Positions 3,701 through 64,000 of a DNA stretch of 64,000 nt are shown here, piece by piece (the stretch's first letter is position 1; the number at the start of each line of letters is the position of its first letter). The translations under genes were made by a program, and so were the position numbers. The DNA lies in NCBI RefSeq assembly GCF_029962835.1, contig NC_080583.1:68805158-68869157 (forward strand). Reading direction: 5' to 3'. Source of the DNA: Magnolia sinica (lineage: Eukaryota; Streptophyta; Magnoliopsida; Magnoliales; Magnoliaceae). The notes beneath the pieces are model-generated. The model ran no database searches and was not told the origin of the DNA. It worked only from the letters and a program-made list of their open reading frames with translations.

Positions 3701-5790
3701 GCACACGTTCATGTGCGGCCACTTATTGATGATAGGATCATTGAGGCACAGAAGGGCGATGGACGATTGTTTGAGCTTTGAGAGTAGGCTAGTGGTAATA
3801 AGGACGCCGATTGGAGAGTTGGTACAAATGAGGGCTTATGTTACCGTGGCCGCCTATGCGTCCCAAATCTTCACGATCTGAGGTGGGAAGTTCTTGAGGC
3901 TGCGCATAATTCGAAGATGGCGATGCACCCTGGAAGTACGAAGATGTATCGCGATATGAAGAGATCGTACTAGTGGGATAACATGAAGGCCTACATAGAA
4001 GATTACATGTCCCATTGTCTCACATCCCAACAGATCAAGGCAGAGCATCACCGACCTCCTGGACTTCTTCAGCCCATGCCCATAATTGAATGGAAGTGGG
4101 ATTTCATCTCTATGGACTTTATCTCGGGACTACCGAAGACGAGGAAGGGTTATGATTCCATATGGGTGATCGTGGATCGGTTGACGAAATCGGCTCACTT
4201 CCTCCCGATTAAAGTTTCGAACTCAGCAGACGAGTTGGCCAGACTGTACATCAGGGAGATTGTGCGTCTGCATGGAGTTCCTTTGGAGATCGTGTCGGAT
4301 CGAGACACGCGATTCACATCTATCTTCTGGACTTGCATCTAGGAAGCAATGGGTGTGAAACTGAAATTTAGCACCGCGTTCCACCCACAGATTGATGGGC
4401 AGATGGAATGGGTGAATCAGATTTTGAAAGATATGTTGCTAGCTTGCATGCTAGATTTTAAGGACAGTTGGGACGACTGTCTCCCGTAAGCAGAGTTTGC
4501 TTATAACAACAGTTTCCAGGCGAGTATTGACATGGCTCCCCATGAGGCCCTGTATGGGCGCCCGTGTAGAGCGTTGCATTGCTGGGCAGAAGTTGGAGAG
4601 AAGAGCTTGATTGGCCCAGAGTTAGTTCAGGCGACCTGAGAGAAGATCAATATTATCAGGCGCCGACTTCTGGCAGCATAGAGCAGACAGAAGAGCTACG
4701 CCAATATGAGGTAGCAGCAGCTAGAGTTCGAGGTTGGGGACCATGTGTTCCTTAAAGTTCTCCCCATGAAGGGAGTCCTTCGGTTTGACAAGAAGGGGAA
4801 GCTCACGCCTAGATTCATTGGCCCATTCCAGATACTTGATCAAGTGGGGGCGGTAGCGTATCGCCTTGCTTTGCCCACTCCACTCGTAGGCGTGCATAAC
4901 ATATTTCATGTATTTATGCTAAAGAAATACGTTCCCGATCCTTCCCACATTATCAGATGGGAGCAGGTATAGTTGAGCGAAGATGTTACTTATGTATTGC
5001 GACCGACGCGTGTCCTGGATAGGAAGGAACAGGTGCTGTGTAGCAAGGTTATCCCACTTGTGAAAGTGTTGTGGACGCACCACACCGAAGAAGAGGCTAC
5101 ATGGGAAACAGAAGCCGAGGTCCGAAAGAACTACCCTCATATTCTCGAGGAGTACGAAAAGGTACTAATTTCGAGGATGAAATTTTTCTTTAAGGGGGTA
5201 GATTGTAACGTCTCGAAAAAATCCGTACAAAGGCCCGAGTACCACCTCAGGCAGAAATCACACAGGACCAAATCCTTTAGAAATTAGGCGGGAATTAACT
5301 AGTGCTAAACTAGCTTATCTGTGAAATTAGCACTAATCACTTTAAATATGATCTGCAAGACCTAAACCGTGCAGAATCATTATCGCTGCATTACCTTAAA
5401 ACTTAAGATCAATCTCAAGTCCCGGTTGCTCTTGGGAGCGCTTTGAAACTCCGTATCAGACCTGGACCGCACATCAAAAGTTCGATGACCGCGAAATTGT
5501 ACCGTTATGACTAACTTATTGGACTTGACTACCACCTCGGAAATCAAGTCCTAATTATATCCAGAAACGCACAACTTACGCCCGGAGCGAAGTGGGTGAG
5601 AGACATGAATATCTTTAGGAAATGAACTGGGACTTAAGTGAACTGAGTCGTTCACTTGCAGGTCCAAATATAAGGATTCAAACAGTCAGAATCTGACCTA
5701 ATTACACCCTCGAATCAGGAAAAATTGCCAAGATCTGTACAAGCACCGGTAAAAGTCCTTGTACAAATTTGAGTGCCCCGGCGTAGGCCA
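790..5790 (+). mobile_element. Ty3/gypsy chromovirus relic (Tekay/Del-like), gag-pol, broken
   Basis: A fossil LTR retrotransposon with domains in the canonical Ty3 order. Gag core about 900-1300 (EKKASLWWDS, RFTELGRYAPLI); a zinc-knuckle-like Cys/His stretch near 1540-1600; aspartic protease about 1830-2100 (LLVDTGSTISI); reverse transcriptase about 2530-3050 ([23 protein letters not shown]); RNase H about 3230-3600; integrase about 3880-4650 (zinc-binding part, then the core beginning near [13 protein letters not shown]); and a C-terminal chromodomain-like end about 5040-5150 (ATWETEAEVRKNYP). Protease and RT wording and the chromodomain tail fit the Tekay/Del lineage of plant chromoviruses. 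A purine-rich tract just before 5204 (AAGGGGGTAGA) is a likely polypurine tract. It is broken, with roughly ten or more disruptions, so it cannot make its polyprotein. No 5' LTR is visible and age cannot be read from LTR pairs. It looks old. Confidence 0.85.
5204..5790 (+). repeat. Probable 3' LTR of the Tekay-like relic
   Basis: It begins with TGTAACGTCTCG directly after a polypurine-like tract, the usual TGTAAC start of this lineage's LTRs. The right end is not certain. A possible TACA end lies near 5764, after which the sequence becomes plain AT-rich DNA. No target duplication could be found because the 5' end is missing. Confidence 0.45.
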
Positions 5791-21448: not shown

Positions 21449-21872
21449 TGTGGGGTCTACTGTGATGTATGTGTTTTATCCACGCCGTCCATCCGTTTTT
21501 TCATATCATTTTAGGGAATAATACCAAAAGACAGGCAGATCTAAGGCTCATGTAGGCAACACTACAGGAGATAGTAGGAATTGGGTGCCTACCATTGAAA
21601 ATTTCTTAAGGATACAGAGGGCTTTGATCAAGCTTATTTTTGTATTTTCTCTTCACCCAGGTCTATTTGACCTTATGAAGAGGTTAGATGGCAAATAACC
21701 TCACGGTGGACCTTAGGAAGGTGTTAAATTAGGTAGTCATTCCATTCCCACTACTTTTCGTGGTGTGATCGGCTTGAACTTTGGATCTGCATATTTTTTG
21801 AGATCATGCTTTAGAATGATATAAAAAATTTGATGGACAGTGTAAATATAACACATAAATCATGGTGGGCCT
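21449..21872. repeat. Foldback repeat, copy 1
   Basis: A roughly 420-bp element whose left end (GGGGTCTACTGTGATGTATG, then CCACGCCGTCCATCCG) is mirrored at the right end (ATCATGGTGGGCC). The two halves are imperfect inverted copies of each other. It has no coding capacity and sits just outside the CACTA terminus. Confidence 0.8.
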
Positions 21873-22609: not shown

Positions 22610-23248
22610 TTACAAGTATTTATGCTTTTTCCTATATGGTCCCATGGGCCCTAAATGTCTATCTTGGAGGGTCCCAAAATTATCATTTATGGTCCACTCG
22701 TTCAATCCTCGTGGAACTTGATTCCTGTCATGGATTCCAAGTGCTTGCAAGTTAGTTACATAATTGATGAATTCAGGATTGTAATCCAGAGCAGATGAGT
22801 CTTGAGAAGGCGGGATGGAGGAGTGGACCGTGCAACCTAACATCTCATCTTCACCTGAATAGTTATCAAATGGTAGATAATCTGGGAAAAGAAACCCAGG
22901 TGGGTAACTATAACTTTCTTTAGCCACAAGAGGGTTAACACCAGCTGTTGTCAAACCCACTTCACTTTTGGGATATTCACTGCTACCTTCAGTACAAATT
23001 TCTGCACTTTCTCCTTCGAAGTCTACCGAGTTTATCCATTCCTCCCATTCATCGTAATTGTCATTGTAAGAAATTGTTGAATTTGCTCCTTCTTGCACTT
23101 CATTAGAAATTATTGCATTTGTTTCTTCATCTTGTGCTTCATTAGAAATTATTGCATTTGTTTCTTCATCTTTTACTTCGTTGGGATTGCCATTGGTATT
23201 TTTCTTTTCACTTCTTTCGTAGATCCTACATAGAACCCAACCGTCCAA
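22610..23248 (-). CDS. NAC gene exon 3 with C-terminal region
   Basis: 212 codons and stop TAA (22610-22612). It begins with subdomain E ([16 protein letters not shown]) and continues into a variable acidic region containing two 13-residue units ([11 protein letters not shown]) encoded by a 39-bp tandem duplication (about 23098-23176). Trp- and acidic-rich stretches ([15 protein letters not shown]) resemble NAC transactivation regions. Confidence 0.9.
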   Translation of the reverse strand: MDGWVLCRIYERSEKKNTNGNPNEVKDEETNAIISNEAQDEETNAIISNEVQEGANSTISYNDNYDEWEEWINSVDFEGESAEICTEGSSEYPKSEVGLTTAGVNPLVAKESYSYPPGFLFPDYLPFDNYSGEDEMLGCTVHSSIPPSQDSSALDYNPEFINYVTNLQALGIHDRNQVPRGLNEWTINDNFGTLQDRHLGPMGPYRKKHKYL

Positions 23249-26200
23249 CTGAACAGACAAACACATATAGAAAAATGCACACTAACAATATCAGTAAAAC
23301 TACACAACATAAGTTGTTTTTACTTATTTTCAATGTAAACGAGCCACCATTATATATCTTTTCAGGGTGCTTGGTTAAAGAGAAAATTATAGTGTAAAAA
23401 CTTGGGAGTCAAATACACATCCAATGTAAATAGGTTAAAAAAATATATGTAAGAATTATATAAGGTGGGCCTTATTGATCAAGGGTCTTGATTGTCCTCA
23501 AGGTTAGATAATGTAATCGGGTGTACTAATGGACCCCATTCAAGTTGTGATGCATGCAAAATCGTGTAAGGGGTGGTGTGCTATAACTGTGCTACACAGT
23601 GTTTTAGTTGAACTGGGATTACTAAATTTGTGTGGAGCCTTGGGGAGAGGAGTTTCGATGGGTTCCACACTCCTTAACCTACTAGGTTAGGTCCCCAATC
23701 CTACACATCAATAAAAGCAAGAATTTCAATCTCAGGACTTCTCTAAGGGTGTTAGGAGAGGAAGATTGCGACATCAAGCCTACAAAAATGACGTCTCAAC
23801 AAGGCACACTATCTAGTTCATTTGATCTCCATATTAGATGCATAGCACGGTCCTTCAATTCCGCATATAGATTACAATATAGTCATTATGTTTTTACATA
23901 TCCAAAGGCCCATTTTTACGGTGATTCTTACATCCTATAATGGTCCACCCTTATCATTGTGGGCCACCTAGGTCACCTATAGCATCATTGTAGGTAAAAA
24001 TAAGTTTATGGGTGTCTCACGTATGTTTCATGTGTGATTCACGTGTGTAAACTCATATAAACACAATGATATATTTGTAATCATCTTTGATATATGATGC
24101 AACCATTCATTGAGCTGTTCATCTTCTCAAAATAAAAACATTTCCTCGTGTCAAAGCCATTGCATTATACATAAAAGATGATTATAAAAATATTCTTGTG
24201 TTTACATGAGCTTATACTCATGTGAATCACACACGAGTCCAGATAATAATCAATTGAAATTCCACGAAGGAAAAAAAAAAAAAACTAACAAAAAAAGCAA
24301 GGGACTTACTCTCATGTTGCCATCACTACTTCTAGTCTTGGTATCTGATAATTCTTTCAATCGGTATTCATTCATGCTCCAATTAGTTTTGGTCGAAACC
24401 TTGTGACCTCCTCTGTAGTAAACCAATGCTTTCTTTACCCAACCAGTATCCAAACCATTCTCATCAGTGATGGGATTATCTGAACCAGTAGCTTTCCAGT
24501 AGCCATTTCCAGCACTCCGATTGGGACGCCGTCCATTCTTGTATTTTCTATCTCTAGAGGTAAAGAAGTAACATTCTTTTCTTATTCTCCTACTCGACAG
24601 GTAATCTGCATGTTGAAACAAATGATCCAATTCATATTTCTTTCTCGCTTGTAAGGTGATATTAGAGGATGTTCTTATACTAATGAAAGTTTAGAAATTC
24701 AAACATATATAAATGTAAAATTGGCATTAATAATAATTCAAAACTCAACTCAACTCAATGCCTAGTTGGGTCGAGTTGATTCGAAGACTTGACTGGATCT
24801 TTTTATTTATTTTTTCCGACGACTCAATGTGTAATGATTAATTTAAAAGTAATTATAGATTAAAACTTTCAAAAATATTATGTTGTATTATATAATAAAA
24901 GATGCATAAGATCCACAGAGCTCCTTGTTTGGGCTGCTAGATGGAGACGCTGGGTGAGTTTTCAATAGACTCGGGTCGAAATCTTTCTGGGTTAAATTGA
25001 CTCGGGTGAGTATCAAGTCACCAAGTTTTAGAACTATGGTATTAATTATAATGAGAACAAGGGAAAGAACTAGCACCTAATGTACCACAATCTCAACATG
25101 CATGGTGCATGTGCTCAAGAGCTGGACCATGCATTGCCGAGCATGGAGTTAGGTAGGCCACATGCCGAAAGGATCCCATTGCTTAATAGCCCTTATTAAT
25201 GGTTACGTGGTTGAAGAATTATTCTTTGGGACCCAAGCTGCTAGCGCGCGTGCCAAAAAAAAAAAAAAAAAACCGCTCTTCTTTAGGGTTAGTGTTGACA
25301 CAAAAGAGAGAACACCGCTAATGTTGCGCGTTTGTCTAAGATCCAAACCGCTCGTCTTCTTCTTCCTGACATGGACGGGCTGTACACCAAAAGTCAAACA
25401 ATTAAGATGATCATCCACTAACAAAGAAAAAGATCCTACTTGTATTACTTAAAGTTACCATCTTAGTTATTAAACACTGAATCTCCTAGTACATATCTGA
25501 TGTAGGATGTAGGACGTGAGTAAACACGTGCCCATCACAAATTGACCGAAAGAAGTCCAGAAAGAAATTAACCAAGTTTCAGTATAGTTTGATCGACCGA
25601 GGAGACCATTCAAGTCAATTGATTGATCGGTTGATCGAGTTGATCGATTGAAATTCAAATTTATATGAAAAAATTTCTAGATAATTTTTACCTAGTTTGA
25701 TTGATCGACTAATTGGAATAAATTCAATTTTATGGGTTTTAGTCTCTAAACGTTTTGCCCCATTCTGATTGATCAATCGACCGATCGACCGATCAACATA
25801 ATGCGAAAATTTAGGTGTTTTTCAATTTTTATCTTCTTATTTATTTAAATTTTTTTCTACTTATGTCTTAGGATTTGTTTAAGGGTATTTAAGCATGAAA
25901 ACCCGTTTATTTGGAAACCTTGTTTCTCTTGTGCATTCGAGAAACCTTTCTTATGGATTCAAGAGAACTTTGTGGATTCAAGGTGTTTATTGTTCAAGAA
26001 AGACAATGATTGCCCTCATCACACCCTTCCCAGCGTTAATTTAGCATTAGATTAAGGCTTTTCCTCGAATCGATGTCTTTTAACGATAGATCGAGCAACA
26101 ATCTTAAGGACAATGCCACATGGAATCATCCTTTAACAACTATGGCTTTTGAGGCGGCGCAACAGGAGAATTGAAAAGTCATGCAGGGGCTACAGGTTGC

Positions 26201-31310: not shown

Positions 31311-32379
31311 CAATGAGAGAGAGAGAGGGGGGCAACCGCCATAGGGACTTAGGGTATTGGGTTATTTATTTATTTATTTATTTTAATAGTTTGGTTCCTA
31401 GTTCGGTTCCGCGATTCGGTTCTATAGTTTGGTTCTACCGATCAATTTATAGTTCGGTTCAGTTCTACATACCCTCAAATTAAGAACCGAACCAATATAA
31501 TCAATTCTTTAACTAGAATCGAAATCAGACCAAACAGGACCATTTGGTCGGTTCCGGTCCAGCTCCATAGTTCTACCAGTTCAATGTGCACCCCTATAAA
31601 ATATGTTACAAATTGACAACAATAGTAACAACAATAACAACGACGACGATGACGACAACGACGACAACATCAACAATAATAATATCAAAACAATGGAAAC
31701 ACAATGTCAAATTACACCTAAAACTTCTACTATCATGCAATCTGGCTTCTTGACTTTTAGATAATGTATATTTTTCTCATCTTCCTTTCATCCCGATGAC
31801 TCAGACCTAATGAATGGTTTGATGAAAGAAAAAGCATCATGGTGGACCCACACACACGAACTTATGTTGGGCATCCCCTTCCCATTGTTCCCTTTAATGT
31901 GGCCCACCTGAGTTATGGATTTGGCTGATTTTTGACAATTACACTAAGCATTGATTAGTGAACCTGATGAACAGAGTAGATTTCACAAATACAGGACGAG
32001 TTGATAGCATGTACACAATACCACAAACCACTGTAGATGATGTTGTATGTATAAGCAGTTGAATGAATAGGTGAATGTGCAAGTAGAATAAAGAACACCA
32101 AGCCACATACACCATTAATAAAGAACTGATTTGATACGTACCTGTATGGCTCTCCGTCCCATGCATGGTGTGATATGCATATACAAGTTCATCTGGACTG
32201 TAATTGTACAAGTCTACTTCACCGATGATATTAGAAGGGAGAGGTTGGCCGAGGTTTTTCTTCAGAAGGTAATGAAAGATGAGCTCAAGATCAGTTGGAC
32301 AGAATCTAAAGCCTGGGGGATAACATCTATCGAATCGCTCCTCCTCTCTTTCTCTCTTTATTCCTACTCTTTCTTCCAT
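22610..32379 (-). CDS. NAC-domain transcription factor, three exons
   Basis: Exons 32379-32142, 24605-24310 and 23248-22610 join in phase (1, then 0) at consensus splice sites (CAG|GTACGT, AACATGCAG|, AGA|GTAAGT, TGTTCAG|) and encode 390 residues. NAC subdomains appear in order: [19 protein letters not shown] (about residues 20-37); [30 protein letters not shown] and [27 protein letters not shown] and [25 protein letters not shown]. The rest is an acidic, Ser/Asn-rich C-terminal half as in NAC activation regions, with no membrane segment. The protein should be a nuclear DNA-binding regulator of CGT[A/G]-type sites (family knowledge). The start is the ATG 20 codons before PPGFRF, and the 5' flank has a TATATAC motif about 45 bp upstream. 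Oddities: intron 1 is 7.5 kb and full of transposons, the usual H of the MHEYRL motif is N, and the tail has a 13-residue repeat. Length and order are normal for a NAC, and no inactivating change is seen. Expression is not shown by the sequence. Confidence 0.85.
24310..24605 (-). CDS. NAC gene exon 2
   Basis: 296 nt covering subdomains C and D, the DNA-contacting part ([23 protein letters not shown]). Acceptor AACATGCAG and donor AGA|GTAAGT. The exon ends in phase 0. Confidence 0.9.
24606..25497. other. NAC intron 1, proximal part
   Basis: Non-coding, AT-rich, with a poly(A) run at about 25256-25272. No elements recognised. Confidence 0.5.
25498..26032 (+). repeat. 5' LTR of the intronic Ty3 relic
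   Basis: Starts TGATGTAGGATG and contains several GATCGATTGA-like short palindromes. It aligns along its whole length with 27387-27859 plus 28509 to about 28571. The right border is approximate. Confidence 0.7.
28024..28280. repeat. Foldback repeat fragment within the MITE
   Basis: Begins GGTCCCACCATGATGTGTG with CACACCGTCCACCC and keeps the internal landmarks ACCATTGAAAACTTC and CACAAAAGTTTTGGAT. The right end is lost. Confidence 0.6.
28335..28430. repeat. 48-bp tandem duplication inside the MITE
   Basis: CCAGCAAAGCATGACATTAA starts at 28335 and again at 28383. The two units are identical as far as I can read, so the duplication is recent. Confidence 0.9.
28572..30490. other. NAC intron 1, middle part; old duplication
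   Basis: No coding signal. A weak duplication of about 150-bp period at about 29330-29630 shares CCAATTAGATTGCAACAAG and GTGGCAAGCA in each unit. A related inverted-type repeat (GGACCCACTGTGATGTGTG, GTGGACCACACC, CAGGTGGGCC) lies at about 29760-30015. Confidence 0.45.
30491..30910. repeat. Foldback repeat, well-preserved copy
   Basis: Left end AGGGCCCACCATGATGTATA and CACACCGTCTATC; right end GATGGATGGCATGGATAAAA then ATCATGG. Left-half landmarks (GGACCACACCACAGAATGAG, ACCATTGAAAACTTC) reappear inverted in the right half (AGTTTTTAACTTTCAATAGT, GAGTGTGGTCCACTT), so the entire element is one long imperfect hairpin. No open frame. Confidence 0.85.
31051..31596. mobile_element. MITE-like repeat with TAGGGGTGCAC ends
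   Basis: Opens TAGGGGTGCACACTGG and closes with the inverse GTGCACCCCTA. It has many GGTTCGGTT-type short repeats inside and a (GA)n tract at about 31271-31323. Repeats with these ends are widespread in plants. The superfamily is not clear and no convincing target duplication is seen. Confidence 0.6.
31597..32141. other. NAC intron 1, 5' end
   Basis: Includes an imperfect (AAC/GAC)n tract at about 31617-31690 and otherwise plain intronic DNA up to the exon 1 donor. No other feature seen. Confidence 0.5.
32142..32379 (-). CDS. NAC gene exon 1
   Basis: 238 nt coding for the charged N-terminus ([14 protein letters not shown]) and NAC subdomains A and B. It ends at ACAG|GTACGT in phase 1. An earlier possible donor (CTT|GTATAT) would not keep frame with exon 2, so the later site is preferred. 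Confidence 0.85.
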
Positions 32380-32778: not shown

Positions 32779-32944
32779 CGTGTAAAAATCCAGGGTCGGC
32801 GTGTGGAACCGTGCGAGTAGTTCGCACGAGACGGGAGCGAACCGTAACCTCATTCTTCTAGAAGGACTCGAAAAGGCCGGGAAGGAGGGAAACGGATCGG
32901 CTACTCACCCTGCTACTAGCCAATGGGGGGTGGTCAGTGCTCTG

Positions 32945-33355
32945 TGGGCCCCACCGTGATGTATGTGTTTCATCCAAGCCGTCCGCCCATTCTTCCATAT
33001 CAATTTATGGTATGAGCTCAAAAATGAGGTTGATCCAAATCTCAGGTGGATCAAACAATGTTGATTGAATGCCCACCATTAAAAACTTTTTGGGGCCACA
33101 AAAGTTTTGGATCAAGCTGATTTTATTTTATTTTTCCCTTCATCCAAGTCTGTATGACCTAATCAACATGTTAGATGTCAAATAACCATTACAGTGGGCC
33201 TTAGGATGTTTTTATGCTGGACATGCAATCACTACTTTTTCCCATGATGTGGTCCACCTGAGATTTATCTATACCTCATTTTTGGTATCAAGTTATAAAA
33301 TTATCTTTCAAAATGGATGAACGGCGTGGATAAAACAAATACAGGGTCCACATAG
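32945..33355. repeat. Foldback repeat, cluster copy A
   Basis: Left end TGGGCCCCACCGTGATGTAT; right end ATGGATGAACGGCGTGGATA followed by a GGGTCCACA. Full length. Confidence 0.85.
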
Positions 33356-34325: not shown

Positions 34326-34735
34326 TGAGGTCCACCATGATTTATGTATTTTATACATTTTCCCAGATAATTTTAGGGTTTGATACAAAAAATGAAACAT
34401 ATACAATTTCAAATGGACCATACCACTTGAAACAGTTGACTTGAACTTTTACTGTTGAAAATTTCTTAGGGGTCACGGAAGTTTTAGATCAAGCTTATAT
34501 TTGTGTTTTCGCTTCATCCATATCTCTATGATCTTATGAACAGATTGGATGACAAATAAACATTACTGTGGGTCTATAGCAAGGTTTCAACGGTGCAAAT
34601 CATTATCCTGACTGTTTTTTTGTGGTATGATCCACTTGATCTTTGTATATGCTTCAATTTTGGGATCAACCCTTTAAATTAGATGGAAAAACGGATGAAC
34701 GGCGTGGATAGACCACATACATTCAAGGCGGGCCT
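34326..34735. repeat. Foldback repeat, cluster copy D
   Basis: GAGGTCCACCATGATTTATG to AACGGATGAACGGCGTGGAT then GGCGGGCC. Followed by the GAGTTTACTCAGTACGA linker shared with other copies. Confidence 0.8.
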
Positions 34736-36853: not shown

Positions 36854-37262
36854 AGCCCACCTTGAATGTACGTGGTTTATCTACGCCGTCCATCCATTTT
36901 TCCATCTAATTGAAGGGGTTAAGCTTAAAATTGAAGCATATCCAAAGATCAAGTGGCTCATATCACATGAAATAGTGAGGATAATGATTTCCACGGTTGA
37001 AACCTTTTGAGGTCTTACAATGATGTTTATTTGTCATCCAACCTTTTGAGATCATACAGATATAGATAAAGGGAAAAGACAAATATAAGCTTGATCCAAA
37101 ACTTCTGTGGCCCTTGAAAACATTTCAACAGTAGACGTTTAATTCAACTATTTCCTGTTGTGTGGTACATTTGAAGATTCTATATGCTTCATTTTTGGGC
37201 TCAGGCCCTAAAATTAAACAGTGAAATGGATGGACCGAGCGGATCAGATAAATAAATCATGG
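36854..37262. repeat. Foldback repeat, cluster copy I
   Basis: TTGAGCCCACCTTGAATGTA with CTACGCCGTCCATCCA to AATGGATGGACCGAGCGGAT then ATCATGGTAGG. The last roughly 20 bp (GGATCAGATAAATAAAT) are duplicated in tandem at the right edge. Confidence 0.8.
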
Positions 37263-38502: not shown

Positions 38503-38930
38503 AGGGCCCACTGTCATTTATGCATTGTATCAACTCTGTCCATCCCTTTTATCATATAAATTTAGGACTTTAAACCAAAGATTAAGCATATCCAAAGCTC
38601 AAGTGGACCACACCACTGGAAACATTTTGAATTGAAGTCTACTGTTGAAAAGTTCTTGGGGGCCACAGAAGTTTTAGATCAAGCTGATATTTTTGTTTTC
38701 CTTTCATCCATGTCTTTGTGATCTTATGAACAGTTTGGATGACAAATAAACATCAATGGCAGCCTTAGAAAGGTTTCAACAGCGGAAATCAATACTTAAC
38801 ACTGTTTCCTATGATATAGTCTACTCGAGCTTTTGATACTCTTCAATTTTGGGTTCAACGCCTAAACTAAAATGGAAAAACGGATGGACCGTGTGGATAA
38901 ACTACATAAATTCATAGTGGGCACAACAGA
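38503..38930. repeat. Foldback repeat, cluster copy L
   Basis: TAGGGCCCACTGTCATTTAT to ACGGATGGACCGTGTGGATA then TCATAGTGGGCACAAC. Followed by linker GAGTTTACTGAGTATGA and GAGTAACTCAGTACGCAATC. Confidence 0.8.
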
Positions 38931-53810: not shown

Positions 53811-54950
53811 GCTACTGAACACTTCAGTGGCGATGATGCTACTGAAATGATGTGGTCGCGTTTCATTGGCGCAAAACTTGGGGCTCGGTTGAAAGCATTT
53901 AATGCCCCTCTGTCACAGAAAAGAAAGGCCGTTTACTAGCCGCGTTTGTACTCGACCACGGAAAACCTTATTTTCTTTCTTTTTCCTTCTCCCACCGGTC
54001 CTCTCTACCAATCTCTCTGTTTTCCTTGTGATGGACACATCTCGAGCTTCAGTATTTCTCCTGATAAAAGAATACAATAAAGTCCCTTCTGCAAGTTGAG
54101 GATAGACGTGGCTGATAAGCCGTGGACATTCCCAGTGGCCCTAGCTTCTAAATCATACATCAAACTGAACAAATTCGAATTACTGAAAAATCATGCCCCT
54201 AATCATCAAAAGAAAATCCCAACTCTTAGAAAGATTTGGGGGAAAAAAAGATAATTTAGAATTTACTATGTGTCGCGCGCAGGAAAACAGAGAAAGGAAG
54301 AGAGGCATGTTGCGGAGGGAAAAATGAAGAAATTCAATTGGGTTGTACAGAGTAAACTTTGATGGCCCCATCGTGTCTGTATGAGGTTTATCCACGCCGT
54401 CCATCCATTTTTACAATTGATTGGAGCGGTTAAGCCCAAAATTGAAGTATATCCAGATCTCAAGTGGACCATACCACAGGAAACAGTGGGAATAATGATT
54501 TCCACCGTTGAAACCTTTTTAGGGCCCACAGTTATGTTTATTTGTCATTCAACTTATTCAAAAGATCACAAAGACATGGATTAAAAGAAATTATAAATAT
54601 CAGCTTGATCCAAAACTTCTGTGGCCTCCAAAATTTTTTTAACCGTAGACATTCAATTTACACTGTTTCCTATGATGTGGTCCACTTGAGATTTGTACAC
54701 GATTCGTTTTTAGTCTCATTCTCTTAAAATGTCTGGTAGTATGGATGGACGGAGTGGATAAAATACATATAGAGTTTACTGTGGCGTTCTGAGTTACTCA
54801 GTACCGGTTAAGTATCAACGCGGCCAGTAAACGGCGTTTCAGTTTTTGACGGAGGAGCATTAAATGCTTTCAACGGAGCCCCACTTTCGGGCCAATGAAA
54901 CGCGACCACATCACTTTGTAGCAATATCGCTACGGAAGTATTCAGTAGCG
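53811..54950. mobile_element. Non-autonomous TIR element with about 135-bp inverted repeats (MULE-like)
   Basis: The left arm 53811-53946 opens GCTACTGAACACTTCAGTGG. The right arm 54817-54950 is its inverse and closes ATTCAGTAGC. The arms are roughly 80% alike and share GATGTGGTCGCGTTTCATTG and GAAAGCATTTAATGC. Inside are a short pyrimidine-rich spacer and a nested foldback repeat. No transposase. Long TIRs suggest a Mutator-like MITE, but the 9-bp target duplication expected of that superfamily is not visible. Confidence 0.75.
54365..54775. repeat. Foldback repeat nested in the TIR element
   Basis: GGCCCCATCGTGTCTGTATG and CCACGCCGTCCATCCA at left; ATGGATGGACGGAGTGGATA at right. A TCTGAGTTACTCAGTACC flank at 54789-54806 matches those of the 33-39 kb cluster. 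Confidence 0.8.
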
Positions 54951-55161
54951 AACCCACGAGAAAATGACCACTGTAGACAAAACCTTTTACCCAGCGGTTT
55001 TTATGTTGGAATACAAACTTAAGTTACCAACTTCGACTAGCACGTGCGGACAGCGACGTTGAGGACGAAACTACCCCTCCTTTTCACTTTCACTGCGAAG
55101 ACGAGCGCTGACGCTCCTCCAACTGACAGTTGTGCGAGCGGTGTAAAAGAGATCAAAGTTA

Positions 55162-55465
55162 CATGGCCCCACAGCTATGTATTTATTATATCCACAACGT
55201 TCATCCATATTTCGAGATCATTTCGGAGCATTATCCAAAAAAAGAAAATCATATCCAATGATTAACTGGGCCACACCACACAGAGCAGCGGAAAATTGAT
55301 TTTCATCGTTAAAACTTTTGTAGGGCCCACCATAACATTTATTGTCCATCCAATCTATTCATAAGGCCACAAAGACCTGGATGAAGAGGAAAATCGATTT
55401 TCATAATGATCCAAAACTTGTGTGGCCCCTAAAAGGGTTTCAACTGTAGACGTTCAAGTAGAATG
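55162..55465. repeat. Foldback repeat, right part missing
   Basis: ATGGCCCCACAGCTATGTAT at left, then GGGCCACACCACACAGAGCA and the mid-element GACCTGGATGAAGAGGAAAA. It ends after TTTCAACTGTAGACGTTCAA. Confidence 0.7.
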
Positions 55466-55557
55466 GTAACGGCGTGAGGACAGCGATACGGATATAGCTA
55501 CGGTTAAAATCCGTAGCTATAGCAGTAAGTCGGCGATCAATCGTAGATTCCAGGATT

Positions 55558-55779
55558 CCACCGCAAGTTGCTATCCCTATCGACGATTAATCGTGAACTT
55601 TGCGATTCCACCCCCGATCTATAGTTATGGATTATAACCGTAGCTATAACCGTAGCTATAGTCGTATCCCACCACAAGTTGTTGTCCCTATTGGCGATTA
55701 ATCGTAAACCTTGCAATTCCACCCCCGATCTATGGCTACGGATTATAACCGTTGCTATAACCGTAGCTATAGCCGTATG
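55558..55779. repeat. Two tandem copies of a 111-bp unit with TAGCTA dyads
   Basis: Units start at 55558 (CCACCGCAAGTTGCTATCCC) and 55669 (CCACCACAAGTTGTTGTCCC). Each ends in repeated ATAACCGTAGCTATA motifs, themselves short dyads. A similar CCGTAGCTATAG occurs just before (about 55511-55522). Possibly the subterminal region of a CACTA or related TIR element whose ends I could not find. Confidence 0.75.
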
Positions 55780-55792
55780 CCAACACACTTTC

Positions 55793-56141
55793 TTTTTTTT
55801 TCTTTTTTTTTTTACATGGAGAATTTTATTCTACCTACATTTTTTTCTAACACATATTTATATAAATATGTAAATATAAGAATATAAAAAAAAAATCTCT
55901 TTTTTTTTTTTTCATTTCTTTCTTTATTCATATAATAAGAATATTTTCTAAACCCAAATTAGTTACTTAACGTACCATATATAATTTTAGGGCTGAAAGT
56001 TGGGCGGGCTCAACCCGACCAACTTGTGACTGACCTGACATTGGGTTGGGCTTGATCAAGATGTATCGAGTTTGGTCTTGGGGTTGGGCCATACAAACAA
56101 CAACTCAATAAAACTTGGGTTGGGCTTGGGTTGAAGTCTTG
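55793..56141. other. AT-rich spacer and TTGGGTTGGG-type repeat
   Basis: T-rich tracts to about 55985, then a 150-bp GGGTTGGGCTTGG-rich stretch of the sort found in many plant repeats. No gene. Confidence 0.5.
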
Positions 56142-56490
56142 GAAATTGCCAGGAAATGCATGGAAATGACCGTGAAATGAAGGAAAATGACCATGAAATG
56201 TATGGAAATGACCGTGAAATAAAGGGAAATGACCATGAAATGCATGGAAATGACCGTGAAATGAAATGGAATCGCTAGGATTGACCGTGAAATGCATGAA
56301 AATGACCATGAAGTGAAAGGAAATGACCGTGAAATGCATGGAAATGACCGTGAAATGAAACGGAATTGTCGGGATTGACCGTGAAATGAAACGGAATCGC
56401 CGGGATTGACCATGAAATGCATGGAAATGACCGTGAAATGAAACGGAATCGCTGGGATTGCCCGTGAAATGCATGGAAATGACCATGAAG
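56142..56490 (+). repeat. 21-bp tandem array, type A
   Basis: About 16 units based on GGAAATGACCGTGAAATGCAT, with variants AAAGG and CGGAATCGC(C/T)GGGATT. In one plus frame the units read as seven-residue repeats (GNDREMH, GNDREMK) over several units. His/Phe-rich open frames on the minus strand are the complement of the same array and not evidence for a gene. Confidence 0.85.
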
Positions 56491-57295
56491 TGACAAACTG
56501 GAAATTGAGCGGGACAAACTAGAAATTGAGCGGGCCAAACTGAAAATTGAGTGGGCCAAACTGGAAATTAAGCGGGCCAAACTGGAAATTGAGTGGGCAA
56601 ACATGGAAATGAGCGGGACAAACTAGAATTTCAGCGGGCAACATGAAATTGAGCGGCAAACATGGAAATGAGCGGACAAACTGAAAAATGAACATTTCCA
56701 TCGAAATTGAGCGGGCCAAACTAAAATTTGAGCGGGACAAATTGGAAATTGAGCGGGACAAACTGGAAAATGAGCGGGCCAAACTGAAAAATGAGCGGGC
56801 CAAACTGAAAATTGAGCGGGATAAACTGGAAATTGAGCGGGACAAATTGAAAATTGAGCGGGCAAACATAAAAATGAGCGGGACAAACTAGAATTTCAGC
56901 GGGCCAAATTGGAAATCGAGTGGGCAAACATGGAAATGAGCAGGACAAACTGAAAATTGAGCGGGACAAACTAGAAATTGAGCGAGGCAAACTGGAAATT
57001 AAGCGGGCCAAACTGAAATTTGAGTGGGCCAAACTGAAATTTGAGCGGGACAAACTGAAAATTGAGCGGGATAAATTGGAAATTGAGTGAGATAAATTGA
57101 AAATTGAGCGGGCAAACATGGAAATGAGCGGGACAAACTAGAATTTCAGCGGGCCAAACTGAAAATTGAGCGAGCAAACATGGAAATGAGCAGGACAAAC
57201 TAAAAATTCGAGTGTTACAAGCTGGAAAATGAGCGGGCCAAACTGAAAAATGAGCAGAACAAACTGAAAAATGAGCGGGCCAAACTGGTAATTAA
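56491..57295 (+). repeat. 21-bp tandem array, type B
   Basis: About 38 units based on GGAAATTGAGCGGGCCAAACT with common alternatives (GGACAAACT, AATGAGCGGG, AATTTCAGCGGG). Read on the plus strand it gives heptads such as ERDKLEI, ERAKLKN and ERAKLEI, with an ATG-initiated open stretch 56688-56891. The pattern has the charge spacing of a coiled coil. The boundary with array A is abrupt (about 56490). Confidence 0.9.
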
Positions 57296-58500
57296 GGAAT
57301 CTTAAGCACTTTCGTGGGTCCTAAAGGCAACCATCAGCAGTTTGGATAACTGAACAATGGCCCCCACGTGTAGAACTCCTTAAATCCTGAATGACATGTT
57401 GTATAAGCTTTAACAAACACTTCAAAAACCAAAACATGGCATACTATATTAGCTCAACCAATAGCTATTAAAAACACAATTGAATCTCTAAAAATATAAA
57501 AATAAGAAAAGACCTAAAAAGGGCCACAATCAACTGAAACCAAAACTTTTGTAGAAAACATAATCTTAGAAAAATCATAGACAACAAAGAAGAAGATTAA
57601 TTGGATAACAAAGATTGATCAATCAATATGATTTTATATATTTATGCTCCATCGACAATAGGGCCCACAATAAATTAGCATTTCTGTATGATATAATCAA
57701 CTGCATCTCTCCAAAAGTACCAGCTATCAGGGAATTTTGGAAGGTGAAATCCTTCCAACTATCAATTGTCTCATGTGGATTGATATCTCAAAATTTTCTA
57801 TGATGAATTGGCTGATGCATAATGCAAAACTGAAAGCGTCATCTCATGAGAGCATAGGCCAGGGATTTTTTCGATGGATTAGAGAGACTAAGTTTGGGGA
57901 GAGACGCAAGATAACCTGTCAATGGAGATCATAGTTGAACAGAAAAGGGTAATTAGAGGTGCTTAGAAAAGAAAATTAACATCCTCAAATGATATTCTTG
58001 TTATTCCACTAATGCTACTCTGGATGTTCATTAAAAGCTCATGTTTTCTATGTAAGTAGAAAAGCTTTGAAAGAAAGGAAAGATTAGTGGGGTTAGATGT
58101 CCAACTCTACTGTGTTTATCAAACAAAATATGCAATTTACATAAAATACACCTAAGTAAAGTTGGTTTTATTTCCTCATGATATCTGAAAAGTGGGGTCC
58201 TCAATCTCTTCATCATAGATTCCTATGAAAAGTTGGGTTTATTTCCTCAAGATATCTGAAAATTGCAAAAAGCACTAATCAAAAGAGTCTAGAGTTGGAT
58301 ATCTTCTGGCAATTGCCATGAAACTTGATTGAATTTCTGGAAACCTTTATCAATTTCTGGTAAGCTTATCTTATGTTTTTGTTGCTAGAAAATCATGAAA
58401 GTATATAATTCCTAGAATTCCTCAATCGTTACTGTTAGTCCATATCACTATCAGATGCGCATTCCAAGCATGTAAACGCGAAGCCTATTCATTATTGCAG
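57296..58500. other. Unique AT-rich DNA left of the PNPase exon, probably intronic
   Basis: No family recognised. A 65-codon open frame at 57737-57934 has no known match. The region just left of 58501 ends in a T-rich tract and ATTGCAG, a good acceptor, so part of this DNA is likely intron copied with the exon. Confidence 0.4.
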
Positions 58501-58569
58501 ATAGTGGTTGAGACAGGTCTTATTGGAAGACAAGCCAGTGGATCTGTTACCATAACTGATGGGGAAACT
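58501..58569 (+). pseudogene. Captured exon of organellar polynucleotide phosphorylase (PNPase)
   Basis: A 69-nt, 23-codon segment between TTATTGCAG and |GTAAGTTGC, reading IVVETGLIGRQASG and then SVTITDGET. It matches the beginning of the first RNase PH-like domain of plant PNPase (3'-5' exoribonuclease/polyadenylase of plastids and mitochondria), where the usual wording is 'VETGLIGRQASGSVTVTDGET'. No neighbouring PNPase exons are recognised, so it is an isolated fragment. It is flanked by 21-bp arrays on both sides, which suggests that the arrays and the exon moved together. It could alternatively be a true exon of a gene with very long introns, but the next exon is not in the following 5 kb. 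Confidence 0.8.
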
Positions 58570-58697
58570 GTAAGTTGCTATGTTTTCTTTATGTAGGCAT
58601 GATTTATTTTCCCTTGTAAGAAATAGATTCTTTCATATGCATATTACTCCTTTTAGTTGGGGATTTATTTTAGTGCTCAACTAGTAGTCCTTGGAAT

Positions 58698-59150
58698 ATT
58701 CATTTGAGCGGGACAAACTGGAAATTGAGCGGGACAAACTGAAAATTTAGCGGGCCAAACTGGACATTGAGCAGGACAAACTGGAAATTGAGTGGGCCAA
58801 ACTGAAAATTGAGCAGGCCAAACTGGAAATTGAGCGGGCCAAACTGGAAAATGAGCGGGACAAACTAGAAAATGACTGGAAAATGAGCGGGCCAAACTGG
58901 AAAATGAGCGGGACAAACTGAAAAATGAGCGAGACAAACTGAAAAATGAGCGGTACAAAATGGGAATTGAGCGGGCCAAACTGGAAAATGACGAGCCAAA
59001 CTGGAAAATGAGCGGGATAAACTGGAAATTGAGCGGGCAAACATGGAAATGAGCGGGACAAACTAGAATTTTAGCGGGCCAAACTGGAAATTGAGCGAGG
59101 CAATCTAGGATTTGAGCGAGGAAAGCTAGAAATTGAGCGAGGGAACCTAC
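58698..59150 (+). repeat. 21-bp tandem array, type B, second block
   Basis: About 21 units of the GAAATTGAGCGGGCCAAACT type, changing over the last roughly 70 bp into a GAGCGAGGGAACCTA variant. Same orientation as 56491-57295. Confidence 0.9.
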
Positions 59151-61636
59151 AACAATGCCGACGCTGAGACTGTGCGGCATTTCTACACTTCAATTTGAAA
59201 TCCAAACATAAAGTCACTGACCTTTGACCTAGCATTCGAAAATTCCCTGATACCCTTTAAGGTGACTGACATTAAGAGGATTTCTGGGGTGCCACACGGG
59301 ACAGTGATTGTTCGACATAGGGATTCGAAGCAGTCCAAGTATAGGGACGAGAGGACTGTTCAGATTTGTGGCGAACCTAAAAATTGGATGATCATGTAAT
59401 AATGGTGTGGGGCTGATCATGTTTGCATGTGAGTTGAGTTGGTAATCAAATGTGGGCTTAATTGTGTTTGCATGTGAGTTGGCAATAATGTATCGGTGGG
59501 TTCTGTGCTATTTTGTGCTACCAACTACTAAGCATGGCATATCTTGTGTGTGGGTGTTTTGTGGTTGGCCGTTTGTTTGGCAACTGCTGTTCCATGATCC
59601 TACTTTGCTTGCTTGCCCTCACCCTTTCGACAATCTGCCATTTAAGGGCCAATCCCAAATCACTATGAGAAGGAATAAGATAATGATGATGCCGATGGCA
59701 GTGGCAACGATCAAGAATAGCAAAGCACGGATAAAGACTAGGTTAGAAAATCCCAACGAACCAAAACTAGGAGATTTTCCATCTAACCTGCCTTTTATTT
59801 TATTTTATTTTATTTTATCTATGCATACACTTGTGCCACTATATTCATGAAAGTCTGGGAAAACCTTAGAAGAGTCTAAGATCATGTTTTAATTCCTCAT
59901 GTTTTTCACTCCCCGCCTAGAAGTTGGGGCAAGATTTATGACCAAAAGGAATTCATGGGAAATGTAAAAACCAACCAAGAACTGATTTATTTTTTATTTT
60001 GCCTAGAAACTAAGGAATTACTAAGCTAAGAAATGTAAAACTCAGCAACCAAAAATTTTCCTCACATAATGAATGTATTTTATTCAAGCCCACCATTCAT
60101 CTTTTCAACTCATTTTCAAGCTTGAATCCGAAAATGAGGCAGATCCAAATCTAAGGTGGGCCACACCATAGTAAATTACGTAATCTAAGGTGGACCCCTG
60201 ACTCTCCTCTTTTATGTAGTAATACTTGGTGGCCTTATCCTGTGTCGATTTTCTTTTGGATTGTTGGAAGCTGGCATTCTGAATCAGGTCAAGATGATCT
60301 CTTAGTTTTTTCATATACCTTCTAATATTTGGTCATCTGTGACTTGATGCAACAACTCATTGGAAGGATGATAATCATCTATAGGAAATTAAGGATAGCA
60401 TTCGTTCCTTGTAAGTACTGAAAGTATTGAACGATGACAGACTATAGTAAGTTTTCGTAGATGCAACATGCTAGTGTCTTTATGTGTGCACATGCATGTA
60501 TAAGTGCTTTTGTGGCATGCATATGTAGCACTTATACGAAATTCATGTTTATCTTGGGGTTGTTTGGTTAGCCTTGAAGTTGTATTCAGATAGAACTTTT
60601 TGAATGCATTTGTCTAGCTACGCTTGTTCGAAGCTTCTTGTATGGATAAGCAAATCTTCAAATTTTAAAGATGCTGGAGAACGAGATGGAGGATAGCAGG
60701 AGTGGCACCATTAAGACAAGTGATGTATACTATGACGTTCTTCCCTCCTTTGTACACTACTTGTACACTAACACCCATTTGTTGTTAGTGAGTCCATACA
60801 TATTTATGTTGAAAGCACTAAAAAATGAGAGTACCAAGCTTCTTTAAGCTACCTCAATAGTATGTAGAAAACGGGGACATAAAACATGCATATGAAAAAG
60901 ATTTTGGTCAGTTGGGGTTCTCCCCAAGTTGATGAAAGAAAGAAAATAGATGGATTCTTGCTTCTTCCAAGCTGCATTTGCAGTTCTACTGACAGTTCTT
61001 GGCCTTAGCACCATGATCTGATGAACATTTGCATTGCATGCAGTCTGCAATACTTATCCATTTATGTCGTCAAACCTGTACTTTTTTCTTTTAAGTTGTT
61101 TCTTTATTTCTTAGCATATACTTTGAAGGACAAAAATCCTTCATATCAGTGACCTTGCTTTGATTTTGTATTATGATTCAATAACGATCACTTGAATGGG
61201 TTGCTTTCGAGTTTCAACACTTGATGTAAAAGTGCATTTGGATTTCATAGTTCCCATGGTTGTCATAATTCATTGCAGAACATATTGACATAGGATGGTC
61301 TTGGTGGTGTGGGCTGTTTTTTGCCTATTTTGCATCTTCTATTTCTCTTGATTTGGTTACGTTAGGTCACTCTTTTCTAATCTTGCTGGCTAGAAGATAG
61401 TCTCTTCTTTGTTTGGTTGAGCTATCAGTGCTAGCAACAAAGAGGTTCATTTTTATTTATTTTTACTGGATTTCATATTTTGTTCATCATCCACATGATT
61501 TAGTGATTATGTTGTTGTGGTACGATGCAGTTAATAGAGAAGGTGAAACTCTCATGGCATAAAGCATCAACAAGTCTATTTTTACGCAAACAAGCATATG
61601 GTTTTAGTGGAAGTTAAACACATTGAACTTGATTTC
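59151..61636. other. Long stretch without recognised genes
   Basis: No protein family could be identified. Contains a (TTTTA)n tract at about 59790-59817 and a small foldback fragment (about 60085-60180, TGAGGCAGATCCAAATCTAA, GTGGGCCACACC). Several T-rich/AG borders suggest intron-like DNA, but no paired exons could be named. Confidence 0.4.
60085..60180. repeat. Foldback repeat fragment
   Basis: Internal landmark AAAATGAGGCAGATCCAAAT followed by GTGGGCCACACCATAG. Ends lost. Confidence 0.5.
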
Positions 61637-61830
61637 CTAAACCTAAACCTTAACGTATTCTCAATTCCCTAAACCTATAACCTAAACATATAACCTAAAA
61701 CCTAAACCTAAATCTAAAACCTAAATGTATTCTTAAATCCCTAAACGTAAACCTACACCTAATCCTAATCTCAACTCCCTAACTTAAACCTAAACCTAAA
61801 CTTGAAAACCCAGACCTAAACCCGATCCCG
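61637..61830. repeat. Degenerate telomere-like (CCCTAAA) tract
   Basis: CCTAAACCTAAACC, TCCCTAAACCTATAACC, ACCTAAAACCTAAACC and similar units derived from the plant telomere unit CCCTAAA, interspersed with drift. About 20 recognisable units. Probably an old interstitial telomere-like repeat or a promoter 'telo-box'-like expansion rather than a chromosome end. Confidence 0.75.
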
Positions 61831-62190
61831 AACCCGAACTTGATTGATGTAATAATGTAGCCCAATCACATGGCAACAAACAAGAAAATCTTGCTTTGTT
61901 GGCAAGCATACTCGAACTCAATCATCACAATGCATCAATTTCCATCTCCACTATCTCTTACAGCATAGATTATTTGAGATTTTGGATTTATCTCATTTTT
62001 AGAGTCATGTCCTAACACAATATGATAATATTAATAGACAAGGTGGATTTGTCACCAACATTATTCCAAGACCCATATAACTTCTCCTTATAAGTTGGGT
62101 AGGACACATGCAACTTGAGCCATCAAAGGAGATAAGGATCACCTCTCATATGTTCTCTCTCTTTTCATTTGTTTTTTCCATAGGATTGTG

Positions 62191-62192
<2 letters not shown>

Positions 62193-62258
<66 letters not shown>
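62193..62258. repeat. (TA)n microsatellite
   Basis: About 33 uninterrupted TA units. Confidence 0.95.
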
Positions 62259-62262
<4 letters not shown>

Positions 62263-62334
62263 CTAGATTAGGCTCAACCTAGACTATACTTAATTGAACC
62301 CAACCAATTTTAACTAGATCTAAGATGATGAACT

Positions 62335-62535
62335 CGTCTAGCCTCAATTTCAAGTTTGGCCCGCTCAATTTCTAGTTTGGGGTCAAATTGGAAATTGAGT
62401 GGGACAAACTGAAAATTGAGCAGGCCAAACTGAAAATTGAGCGGGATAAACTGGAAATTGAGCGGGCGTCACTCAATTCTTCAGTTCCCTCGCTGAATTT
62501 CTAGGTTCCCTCGCTAAATTCCTAGGTTCCCTCAC
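62335..62535. repeat. 21-bp type B units in both orientations
   Basis: At 62340-62383 the units are inverted (AAGTTTGGCCCGCTCAATTT), at about 62384-62468 they are direct (GGAAATTGAGTGGGACAAAC), and from about 62469 to 62535 the GAGCGAGGGAACCTA variant is inverted (TAGGTTCCCTCGCTAAATTC). Confidence 0.85.
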
Positions 62536-63070
62536 CAAGCACACTGGAAGGATTGCAAATCTAGGGGGTTTCTAATCTTGGGGGTTCCAAATCCAGGGTT
62601 TTACAAATCCACGCTCCCAACTAGGCCCAAGGATTGTTAAGTAGCTGTAATTTTTGAGGCGTAAACGATCCATGCTGATTAGTAAATATGGATGGACAGA
62701 TTTGCACCTCACACTGCCAAGTGTACTGGGTATAGATGGCTTTACCATACTCCGATTTTTTCCTCTCCTCTATGTCATCGCCCTTTGGATATGCCCACTA
62801 CAAGTTCAACCGGAATACGTAGATGCGCCGAACGCACTGAAGCAAGCCCACCCATCGGCCAACCGACACACTCATGTTGAATGTATACCGTCGGTTATCA
62901 TTGTTTCAACCGTCCATTTCTTTATACATGCCTGACCCACCCAACCAACAAAAATTTTAAGAAACAGAAAATTCACCATCAGAACCACCTTTATGAGCGC
63001 CCATGATCCCACAAGGATGTGGTTTGGTCGGTGACCCCAGCACCAGCCAGATAGTTGGTGTCAAAGCTAT
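62536..63070. other. Spacer without recognised genes
   Basis: A plus-strand open frame at 62654-62935 has no family match and no codon signature. Nothing else seen. Confidence 0.4.
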
Positions 63071-63493
63071 GTGAGCCACACCATTATGTATGTGTTTTAT
63101 CAACAATCTATCCAATTTATTTCAGCTCATTTTAGGCTATGAGCCAAAAAATGAGGCAGATCTAAAGCTCAAGTGAACTACCCCACAAAAAACTGTGGGG
63201 ATTGAATGCTTACTGTTGGAAACTTCTTTAACGCACACAAAAGCTTTGGATCAAGTTGATATTTGTGTTCACCCATCGTACATCGTGTGAACTCATGAGC
63301 AGGTTAGATAGCAAATAACCATCACTTTAGGCCCTGGGAAGGTTTCAAATGTGGACATCATTCTCACTATTGTATCTTGTGGTTTGATCCACCTGAGCTT
63401 TGGATCGCTTCATTTTTGGACTCATGCCTTAAAATGAGCTGAAAGAATGGATGAACAGCATGGATTAAACACATACTTCATAGTGGGGCCCAC
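63071..63493. repeat. Foldback repeat, full-length copy
   Basis: GTGAGCCACACCATTATGTA at left and ATGGATGAACAGCATGGATT then CATAGTGGGGCCCACAG at right. Both halves present, arms inverted. Confidence 0.85.
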
Positions 63494-63536
63494 AGCTTTT
63501 GCACTAGATAGCTGGCTCATGTTGGGTCACCTACTA

Positions 63537-63690
63537 GTTTTTAATGGTGGATATTCAGTCAACATTGTGTTCTTGTAGTATGGTTCACCTTAGATTTGTA
63601 CGTCTCATTTTTTGTCTTATGCCATAAAATGAGCCGGCTAAATGATTGAACTGAGAGGATAAAAGAGATACATCATCATGGAGCTCACAG
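63537..63690. repeat. Foldback repeat, right half only
   Basis: Starts mid-element (TTTTTAATGGTGGATATTCA) and runs to ATCATCATGGAGCTCACAG. Directly follows the full copy. Confidence 0.7.
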
Positions 63691-63789
63691 ATCAGCTAAT
63701 TGGCTGGTGCTGCGGTCAATAGCCTAATTACATCCTTGATCGTGCGTCAGTAATCAGCAGTCTTATTCTAGTTTCGATGGACTGCTTTC

Positions 63790-64000
63790 GATAGATGAGC
63801 CTGATTAGCCAGGGTTTAGAACATATGAAAGCCTAATTAGCCAGGGTTTAGATTCATGGTCATTTCAATGCACTTGACGGTCAATTCCCTTCACTTCACG
63901 GTCATTTCCACGCATTTCACGTTCAATTTGCTTCACTTCATGGTCATTTTCATGCATTTCACGGTCAATTTCGACGATTCCGTTTAGATTCACGGTCATT
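63790..64000 (-). repeat. 21-bp array, type A, inverted, running off the window
   Basis: After a 32-bp direct duplication (GATTAGCCAGGGTTTAGA at 63803 and 63835) come units ATTTCACGGTCATTTCCACG, the reverse complement of the type A unit at 56142-56490. At least seven units before the window ends. Confidence 0.8.

Follow-up and report, generated by a model that had tools for sequence, protein, structure and literature searches.

Foldback elements such as FB and FARE have long inverted ends with internal tandem repeats, in hosts and with repeat units other than those described here. We analysed a 64,000-nucleotide stretch of the Magnolia sinica genome (NC_080583.1, here contig C11:68805158-68869157, called the window) that holds most of a large transposable element with arrays of 21-bp repeats in its inverted ends and a captured PNPase exon. 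Several published systems resemble this element, as far as the compared parts of their descriptions extend. Pack-MULEs (Jiang et al. 2004, as cited in PMC6431247) likewise combine Mutator-type ends and duplications with a captured host fragment and no transposase of their own; none of those first reported exceeds 7 kb, most measure 1-2 kb, and efficiency falls above 6 kb of cargo (PMC6431247). The window element differs from that description in its length of 11.3 kb, in ends that consist partly of 21-bp arrays, and in a captured PNPase piece that also lies within transposase-bearing copies. Mutator-like elements (MULEs) with multiple long terminal inverted repeats (TIRs) (Ferguson and Jiang 2012, PMC3310237) share extra inner copies of terminal sequence, and one such family bears a gene fragment and has multiplied; the TIR itself is doubled there, whereas the inner TIR of the window element is made up of 21-bp minisatellites of two types, which appear again as inner modules. 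Tm1, a Mutator/Foldback element of root-knot nematodes (PMC3169594), likewise has 9-bp duplications and TIRs filled by variable short tandem repeats that are unequal between sides, and some of its copies have a putative transposase. Tm1 differs in its 13-15 bp repeats, asymmetric 7-bp end motifs and nematode host, and the description compared contains no two-array A-B order. Tetris foldback elements (PMC4079207) also have long inverted ends with internal tandem repeats and are a source of satellite-like arrays, in another host and with a unit of about 220 bp. MuTAnT (PMC4486113), with its modular foldback TIRs, is among the nearest published elements, and a MULE survey gives TIRs of 14-500 bp (PMC6446971).

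The window copy is a Pack-MULE of a giant, foldback-like MULE family. It has inverted termini and a target-site duplication, belongs to a family with many copies, carries a fragment of a host gene whose donor is located in the same genome, and has transposase-bearing relatives. As a full account of the locus, a large non-autonomous Mutator-like DNA transposon is almost certainly the best explanation. Its size, its long array-filled TIRs, the A-B order of its arrays and the presence of the captured exon in transposase-bearing copies are unusual, and searches of part of the literature, at the level of titles and abstract openings, gave no account of an element of this kind in magnoliids or of one built with 21-bp arrays. 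A preliminary description made from the window alone had raised the possibility of a large undescribed element; its kind is a known one, the Mutator superfamily.

Termini, flanks and dispersed copies

The element extends from 54958 to 66241 in window coordinates (11,284 bp), with its right end 2.2 kb past the window. TIRs occur at both ends, as in other MULEs: each end has the sequence GAGAAAATGACCACTGTAGACAAAACC, in inverted orientation, the ends of the family are GAGAAAATGACC ends, and we take GAGAAAATG to resemble Mutator ends. Identity between the termini at 54958 and 66241 is 93-94% across roughly 100 bp. For the outer 500 bp of the two arms it is 90% in an alignment of 501 columns (92.3% of 492 gap-free columns), and for another 1.1 kb it is 74%. 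From the outside inward, each TIR comprises a conserved 27-bp end, subterminal sequence of about 1.1 kb, and the A and B arrays. The left flank, CGAACCCAC, and the right flank, CGAATCCAC, form a 9-bp target-site duplication with an 8/9 match. Borders were mapped by comparing positions 50,001-74,000 (the window and its right-hand continuation, L010) with 10 of 18 other array-bearing loci. A left border near 54955 is common to four of the ten (L014, L018, L020, L023), which additionally match 65749-66241 in inverted orientation, and the terminal 106 bp are present in nine of the 18 loci. The features of the element are as follows, in window coordinates.

54949..54957, no strand: left copy of the target-site duplication, CGAACCCAC (flank comparison)
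54958..64000, no strand: portion of the element inside the window (border, flank and copy comparisons)
54958..55457, plus strand: outer left TIR, beginning GAGAAAATGACCACTGTAGACAAAACC, with its inverted partner at the right end
56140..56496, plus strand: type A array of the left arm, 21-bp units, partner of the inverted A at 64549-65097
56487..57297, plus strand: type B array of the left arm, about 38 units of 21 bp, partner of the inverted B at 64396-64549
57300..58027, plus strand: inner segment that is also in other copies (copy comparison)
58151..58706, plus strand: captured host fragment (match to donor gene)
58501..58569, plus strand: PNPase exon, 69 bp, 23 codons, phase 0, IVVETGLIGRQASGSVTITDGET, with intact AG/GT splice sites
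58698-59106, plus strand: second type B array, directly adjoining the captured fragment; the whole block including its C end is 58698..59155
59102-59155, plus strand: C-variant block, end of the second B array (unit scoring)
62341..62382, minus strand: two units of inverted type B, an inner module and not a terminal arm
62378..62476, plus strand: forward type B block (unit scoring)
62472..62540, minus strand: inverted C-variant block (unit scoring)
63012..63738, no strand: dispersed repeat resembling a miniature inverted-repeat transposable element (MITE), with 57-bp imperfect inverted ends, 72% complementary (window self-comparison)
63851..64000, minus strand: inverted type A at the window edge, extending to 64066, an additional inner A module
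64396-64549, outside the window, minus strand: inverted B of the right arm, partner of the left B
64549-65097, outside the window, minus strand: inverted A of the right arm, partner of the left A
66242-66250, outside the window, no strand: right copy of the target-site duplication, CGAATCCAC (flank comparison)

The preliminary description had proposed a single mobile element, and the inverted termini, the duplication and other copies with the same borders bear this out. The left border that it placed at 56142 marks no more than the beginning of the A array, and the element itself starts 1.2 kb further left. It had also suggested extending the sequence past 64000, which does lead to an inverted terminus mirroring the left end, with 54958 and not 56142 as its partner, and looking for other loci with the same borders, of which two 14.2-kb copies with perfect 9-bp duplications are examples. 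These copies, on contigs C2 (14,147 bp) and C18 (14,217 bp), have both termini and the duplications TTTTCAAAA and AAATTTCTA, respectively, and are 96.6% identical to each other over their entire length. The window copy is 97.7% identical to the C2 copy across its right 7.2 kb.

In the genome searched, which comprises 127 contigs and 1.84 Gb, exact copies of the 27-bp terminus stand at 327 places (157 forward and 170 reverse), against 0 for a control pattern. Pairing was based on 100 of these places, from C1 to part of C6: neighbours no more than 40 kb apart are convergent in 27 of 28 cases, and the 27 listed convergent pairs, C2 copy included, range in span between 1.06 and 31.7 kb, many of them clustering around 14 kb. 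Flanks were examined for 20 of the 26 listed pairs other than the C2 copy. Thirteen have perfect 9-bp duplications, two have 8/9 matches, three have perfect 10-bp duplications and two have none; among 380 mismatched flank pairs used as a 9-bp control, none reaches 8/9. Together with the window, C2, C18, C15 and C6 copies, 22 of 25 copies are flanked by a duplication of 9 bp (perfect or 8/9) or of 10 bp (perfect), as in MULEs, whose target-site duplications measure about 9-11 bp. A multi-copy Mutator-type family has moved a 14-kb unit intact, and duplicated flanks also occur around pairs of up to 31.7 kb, a length that possibly includes later insertions.

Joined flanks of the C18 copy align across the junction with an uninterrupted related repeat in the window (35760-35570, 77% over 193 bp); by sequence comparison, this is a paralogous empty site, which is weaker than an orthologous one. 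Joined flanks of a C3 copy (L056) also give a spanning match (69% over 106 bp), and those of the window and C2 copies give none in the sequences compared. The first 14 bases outside the right end (atgtattattggcg) are identical at the C2:45551737 pair (L041), which has no target-site duplication, and at C6:17913566 (L078), where the copy has an 8/9 duplication. This shared flank suggests segmental duplication or recombination between copies.

Tandem arrays and inner modules

Arrays were scored as positions with at least 16/21 identity to a 21-bp unit and compared with five mononucleotide shuffles of the whole window. After 55,500, such positions number 398 for A, 1176 for B and 131 for C, a variant of the B unit; before it they number 3, 7 and 3, and the shuffles give 0-17 each. 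Runs of A-type and B-type units are restricted to the last 8 kb of the window, and A and B positions in the first 55.5 kb are not above those of shuffled sequence. The blocks named in the preliminary description are real and far above chance. A possible common origin of A and B was assessed by same-strand circular alignment, which gives a score of 6, a value reached by 3.2% of 1000 shuffles. Searches with the array patterns in viral and prokaryote collections gave 0 matches. A coding origin of the arrays, with the B unit read as the heptad ERDKLEI, was rejected because third codon positions are not where most of the variation falls (two B arrays give 0.155/0.122/0.077 and 0.075/0.145/0.082 at positions 1/2/3) and the frame is interrupted in places.

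Within the window alone, the blocks run A> B> B> C> B< B> C< A<. This mirror is weak because a two-unit inverted B directly precedes a larger forward B, which is followed by an inverted C. The true mirror order is terminus-A-B ... B-A-terminus, and it becomes visible with the right arm outside the window. The mirrored arrangement in the preliminary description is real in this sense, but the right-hand inverted B and A that it named are inner modules rather than terminal arms; the right-side blocks that it listed exist, and the forward B at 62378-62476 and inverted C at 62472-62540 were left out. Both the inverted B at 62341-62382 and the inverted A at 63851-64066 have counterparts at the corresponding places in the C2 and C18 copies. 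As in foldback elements, the inverted ends are long and contain internal tandem repeats, with A-B arrays in both arms. The inner segment at 57300-58027 joins the next segment through seven shared bases (58021-58027), where L014 and L017 carry array-bearing sequence; between 58021 and 58027 the window copy has apparently undergone a deletion.

These modules bear on how the element arose. A composite origin, compatible with the Pack-MULE interpretation, has about an even chance of being correct: a small A-B foldback element would have grown, and the 14-kb form would then have transposed as a unit. The starting form would have resembled the 7.3-kb copy on C15, with growth through inserted elements and inner copies of its own ends, a course of events that we rate neither above nor below its negation. 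The C15 copy (7,287 bp) is arranged simply as A> B> ... B< C< A<, and its flanks have no duplication (3 of 9 match). The C2 and C18 copies have extra inner array modules and inner inverted repeats of about 845 bp that are 95.5-96.9% identical, and a MITE-like repeat lies inside the element; all of these speak for such an origin.

It is very improbable that independent dispersed minisatellite arrays stand in mirror order by coincidence and form no single element. B-type arrays do look very common (a search with the left B array, using its first 309 bp, yielded 3350 first-look candidates, and the 40 that were scored contain 127 matches), and the order seen in the window alone is a weak mirror. 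However, in 10-kb stretches around 18 other loci, several of these loci show the same array-block order, so the arrays belong to a repeated unit of larger size, and common termini with 9-bp duplications and two copies that match end to end are not expected of coincidence. The family may account for many dispersed 21-bp arrays of this genome.

The captured PNPase exon and the family transposase

The PNPase exon with AG/GT splice sites that had been noticed at 58501-58569 is present, with 23 codons, and its proposed capture from the host is confirmed by a donor gene on C6. This gene has exons in order at C6:98606641-98630527, and window 58193-58706 matches C6:98630832-98630319 at 93.6% over 514 gap-free bp, which comprise the exon with 308 bp of the intron before it and 137 bp of the intron after it. 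The element therefore contains a host-gene fragment with a known donor, as Pack-MULEs do. Positions 58151-58194 duplicate 58222-58265 and also match the donor, and the donor match stops at the start of the B array. The window copy and donor differ at four exon positions, all synonymous; this is a small number and may reflect selection on the donor gene only. A genome search with PNPase gave 70 matches, of which nine lie in the donor gene, two lie on C19 (with other query parts) and 59 are the lone exon (E up to 0.38, window copy counted). Among the 40 of 212 candidates that were scored, the piece 58021-58698 occurs at 31 other places with 94-100% identity, and 28 of the 31 share exactly its borders. 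The exon is intact in L016, L017 and L014 (3 of 18 loci), has an altered splice donor in the C6 copy, and is absent from the C2 and C18 copies. An open frame is retained in many isolated exon copies.

That the exon belongs to a real local PNPase gene with arrays in its long introns is hardly conceivable. The reading frame and splice sites are intact and the real gene is also long-introned (24 kb matched in all), but no other PNPase exon was found in the 64-kb window, the ordered exons are on C6, and the lone exon recurs at 59 places, window included. This candidate was rejected, with the donor on C6 and the exon isolated in the window.

Judged from conserved domains, the family possesses a transposase of its own, located close to one end of the element. 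Examination of the middle of the C6 pair located MuDR-type transposase frames in this copy (23,106 bp, 8/9 duplication), with MULE transposase (PF10551, 2.6e-18), MuDR DNA-binding (PF03108, 2.6e-9) and SWIM (PF04434, 6.6e-9) domains in a region divided among several frames. A 319-aa transposase stretch was sought 4.0-5.3 kb from both ends in 10 of the 11 other pairs longer than 17 kb and was found in five, near one end; with the C6 copy, six of 11 probed copies longer than 17 kb carry the same transposase near one end. The stretch is unbroken in C3:102095303 and has a broken frame in the other four, with DNA identities of 94.8-98.2%. The family thus includes the MuDR-type transposase that defines MULEs, and non-autonomous copies could therefore be moved in trans. 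Genome-wide, the 319-aa stretch has 125 matches with 75-100% identity (125 of 1570 candidates scored), many of them in long open frames. Exon and transposase are associated: at 22 of its 59 places the exon has a transposase match at a distance of 2.1-4.1 kb, in every case on the opposite strand, and the exon lies within 12 kb of 16 of the 21 closest transposase relatives (at least 91%) versus 2 of 104 others. On this distribution, one PNPase capture in the ancestor of that transposase subfamily fits. A Helitron or retrotransposon in place of a MULE is extremely improbable, since Helitrons, which likewise carry intron-containing gene pieces, have neither target-site duplications nor terminal inverted repeats, and this family has long inverted termini with 9-10-bp duplications and relatives with MULE, DNA-binding and SWIM domains.

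Several observations weigh against the Pack-MULE interpretation. The target-site duplication of the window copy has one mismatch, three of the 25 copies (the C15 copy, L040 and L048) have no duplication, and pair spans may include later insertions. Array lengths are unequal between arms (357 versus 549 bp for A, 811 versus 154 bp for B), so the mirror holds for order and not for length. The transposase is absent at the probed offsets in five of the 10 further large pairs, and none of 44 PF10551 hits on C1-C6 (among 150 scored) falls inside the listed pairs, with 38 of the 44 lying within the part of the genome covered by the terminus listing. Three transposase pieces from the C6 copy match neither the window nor L010 (E <= 1e-4), and they have no match in the examined stretches of the C2 and C18 copies; for the window copy, this agrees with the absence of visible transposase in the preliminary description and with Pack-MULEs, which have no transposase of their own. 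The window copy has 33 stop-free frames of at least 70 aa, and the 14 longest, considered without a Pfam scan, are array translations and a few unnamed frames of 94-134 aa.

Proposed mechanism and other contents of the window

We infer that the transposase of full-size relatives would bind the shared ends and move the window copy in trans, with a cut of 9-bp stagger during transposition. Unequal exchange or copying errors may lengthen or shorten the arrays and in this way produce inner modules and size classes. A copy of the PNPase piece would have been placed in a B array or next to one, probably in a single event, in the ancestor of one transposase subfamily, perhaps through repair with a template switch or joint mobilisation of neighbouring ends, and would then have multiplied along with the element. 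A broader proposal is tentative and, taken jointly, has a probability that we put well below one half: that this is a giant MULE lineage (most paired ends lie 7-32 kb apart) whose 21-bp arrays form a growing platform inside the TIRs; that the arrays multiply weak sites for transposase or host factors, which would allow Mutator transposase to move far more DNA; that they are a landing place for captured host DNA; and that a single subfamily with a transposase took up the host PNPase exon and has since carried it at a constant position next to its transposase gene. Donor, captured piece, transposase-bearing copies and non-autonomous copies occur in one genome, which makes it feasible to establish when and where the capture took place.

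Other repeats occur within the element. A 111-bp tandem repeat with inner 12-bp TATAACCGTAGC units lies at 55558-55787, inside the left arm. Telomere-like and simple repeats had been reported between the arrays and are present: degenerate CCTAAA repeats at 61636-61822 lie in the 7.2-kb stretch shared with the C2 copy (97.7% identity), and TA repeats also occur. The MITE-like repeat at 63012-63738 sits in the same 7.2-kb stretch. Its relatives in the window include 34364-34734, 36856-37214, 32933-33342, 21465-21869, 38516-38929, 54379-54694 and others, and long matches of this family are about 68-75% identical among many places of the window. Elsewhere, the window contains what we take to be Ty3-type retrotransposon frames at 930-5287 (protease, reverse transcriptase and integrase pieces) and, presumably, NAC-type gene pieces on the minus strand at 22610-24630 and 31939-32379.

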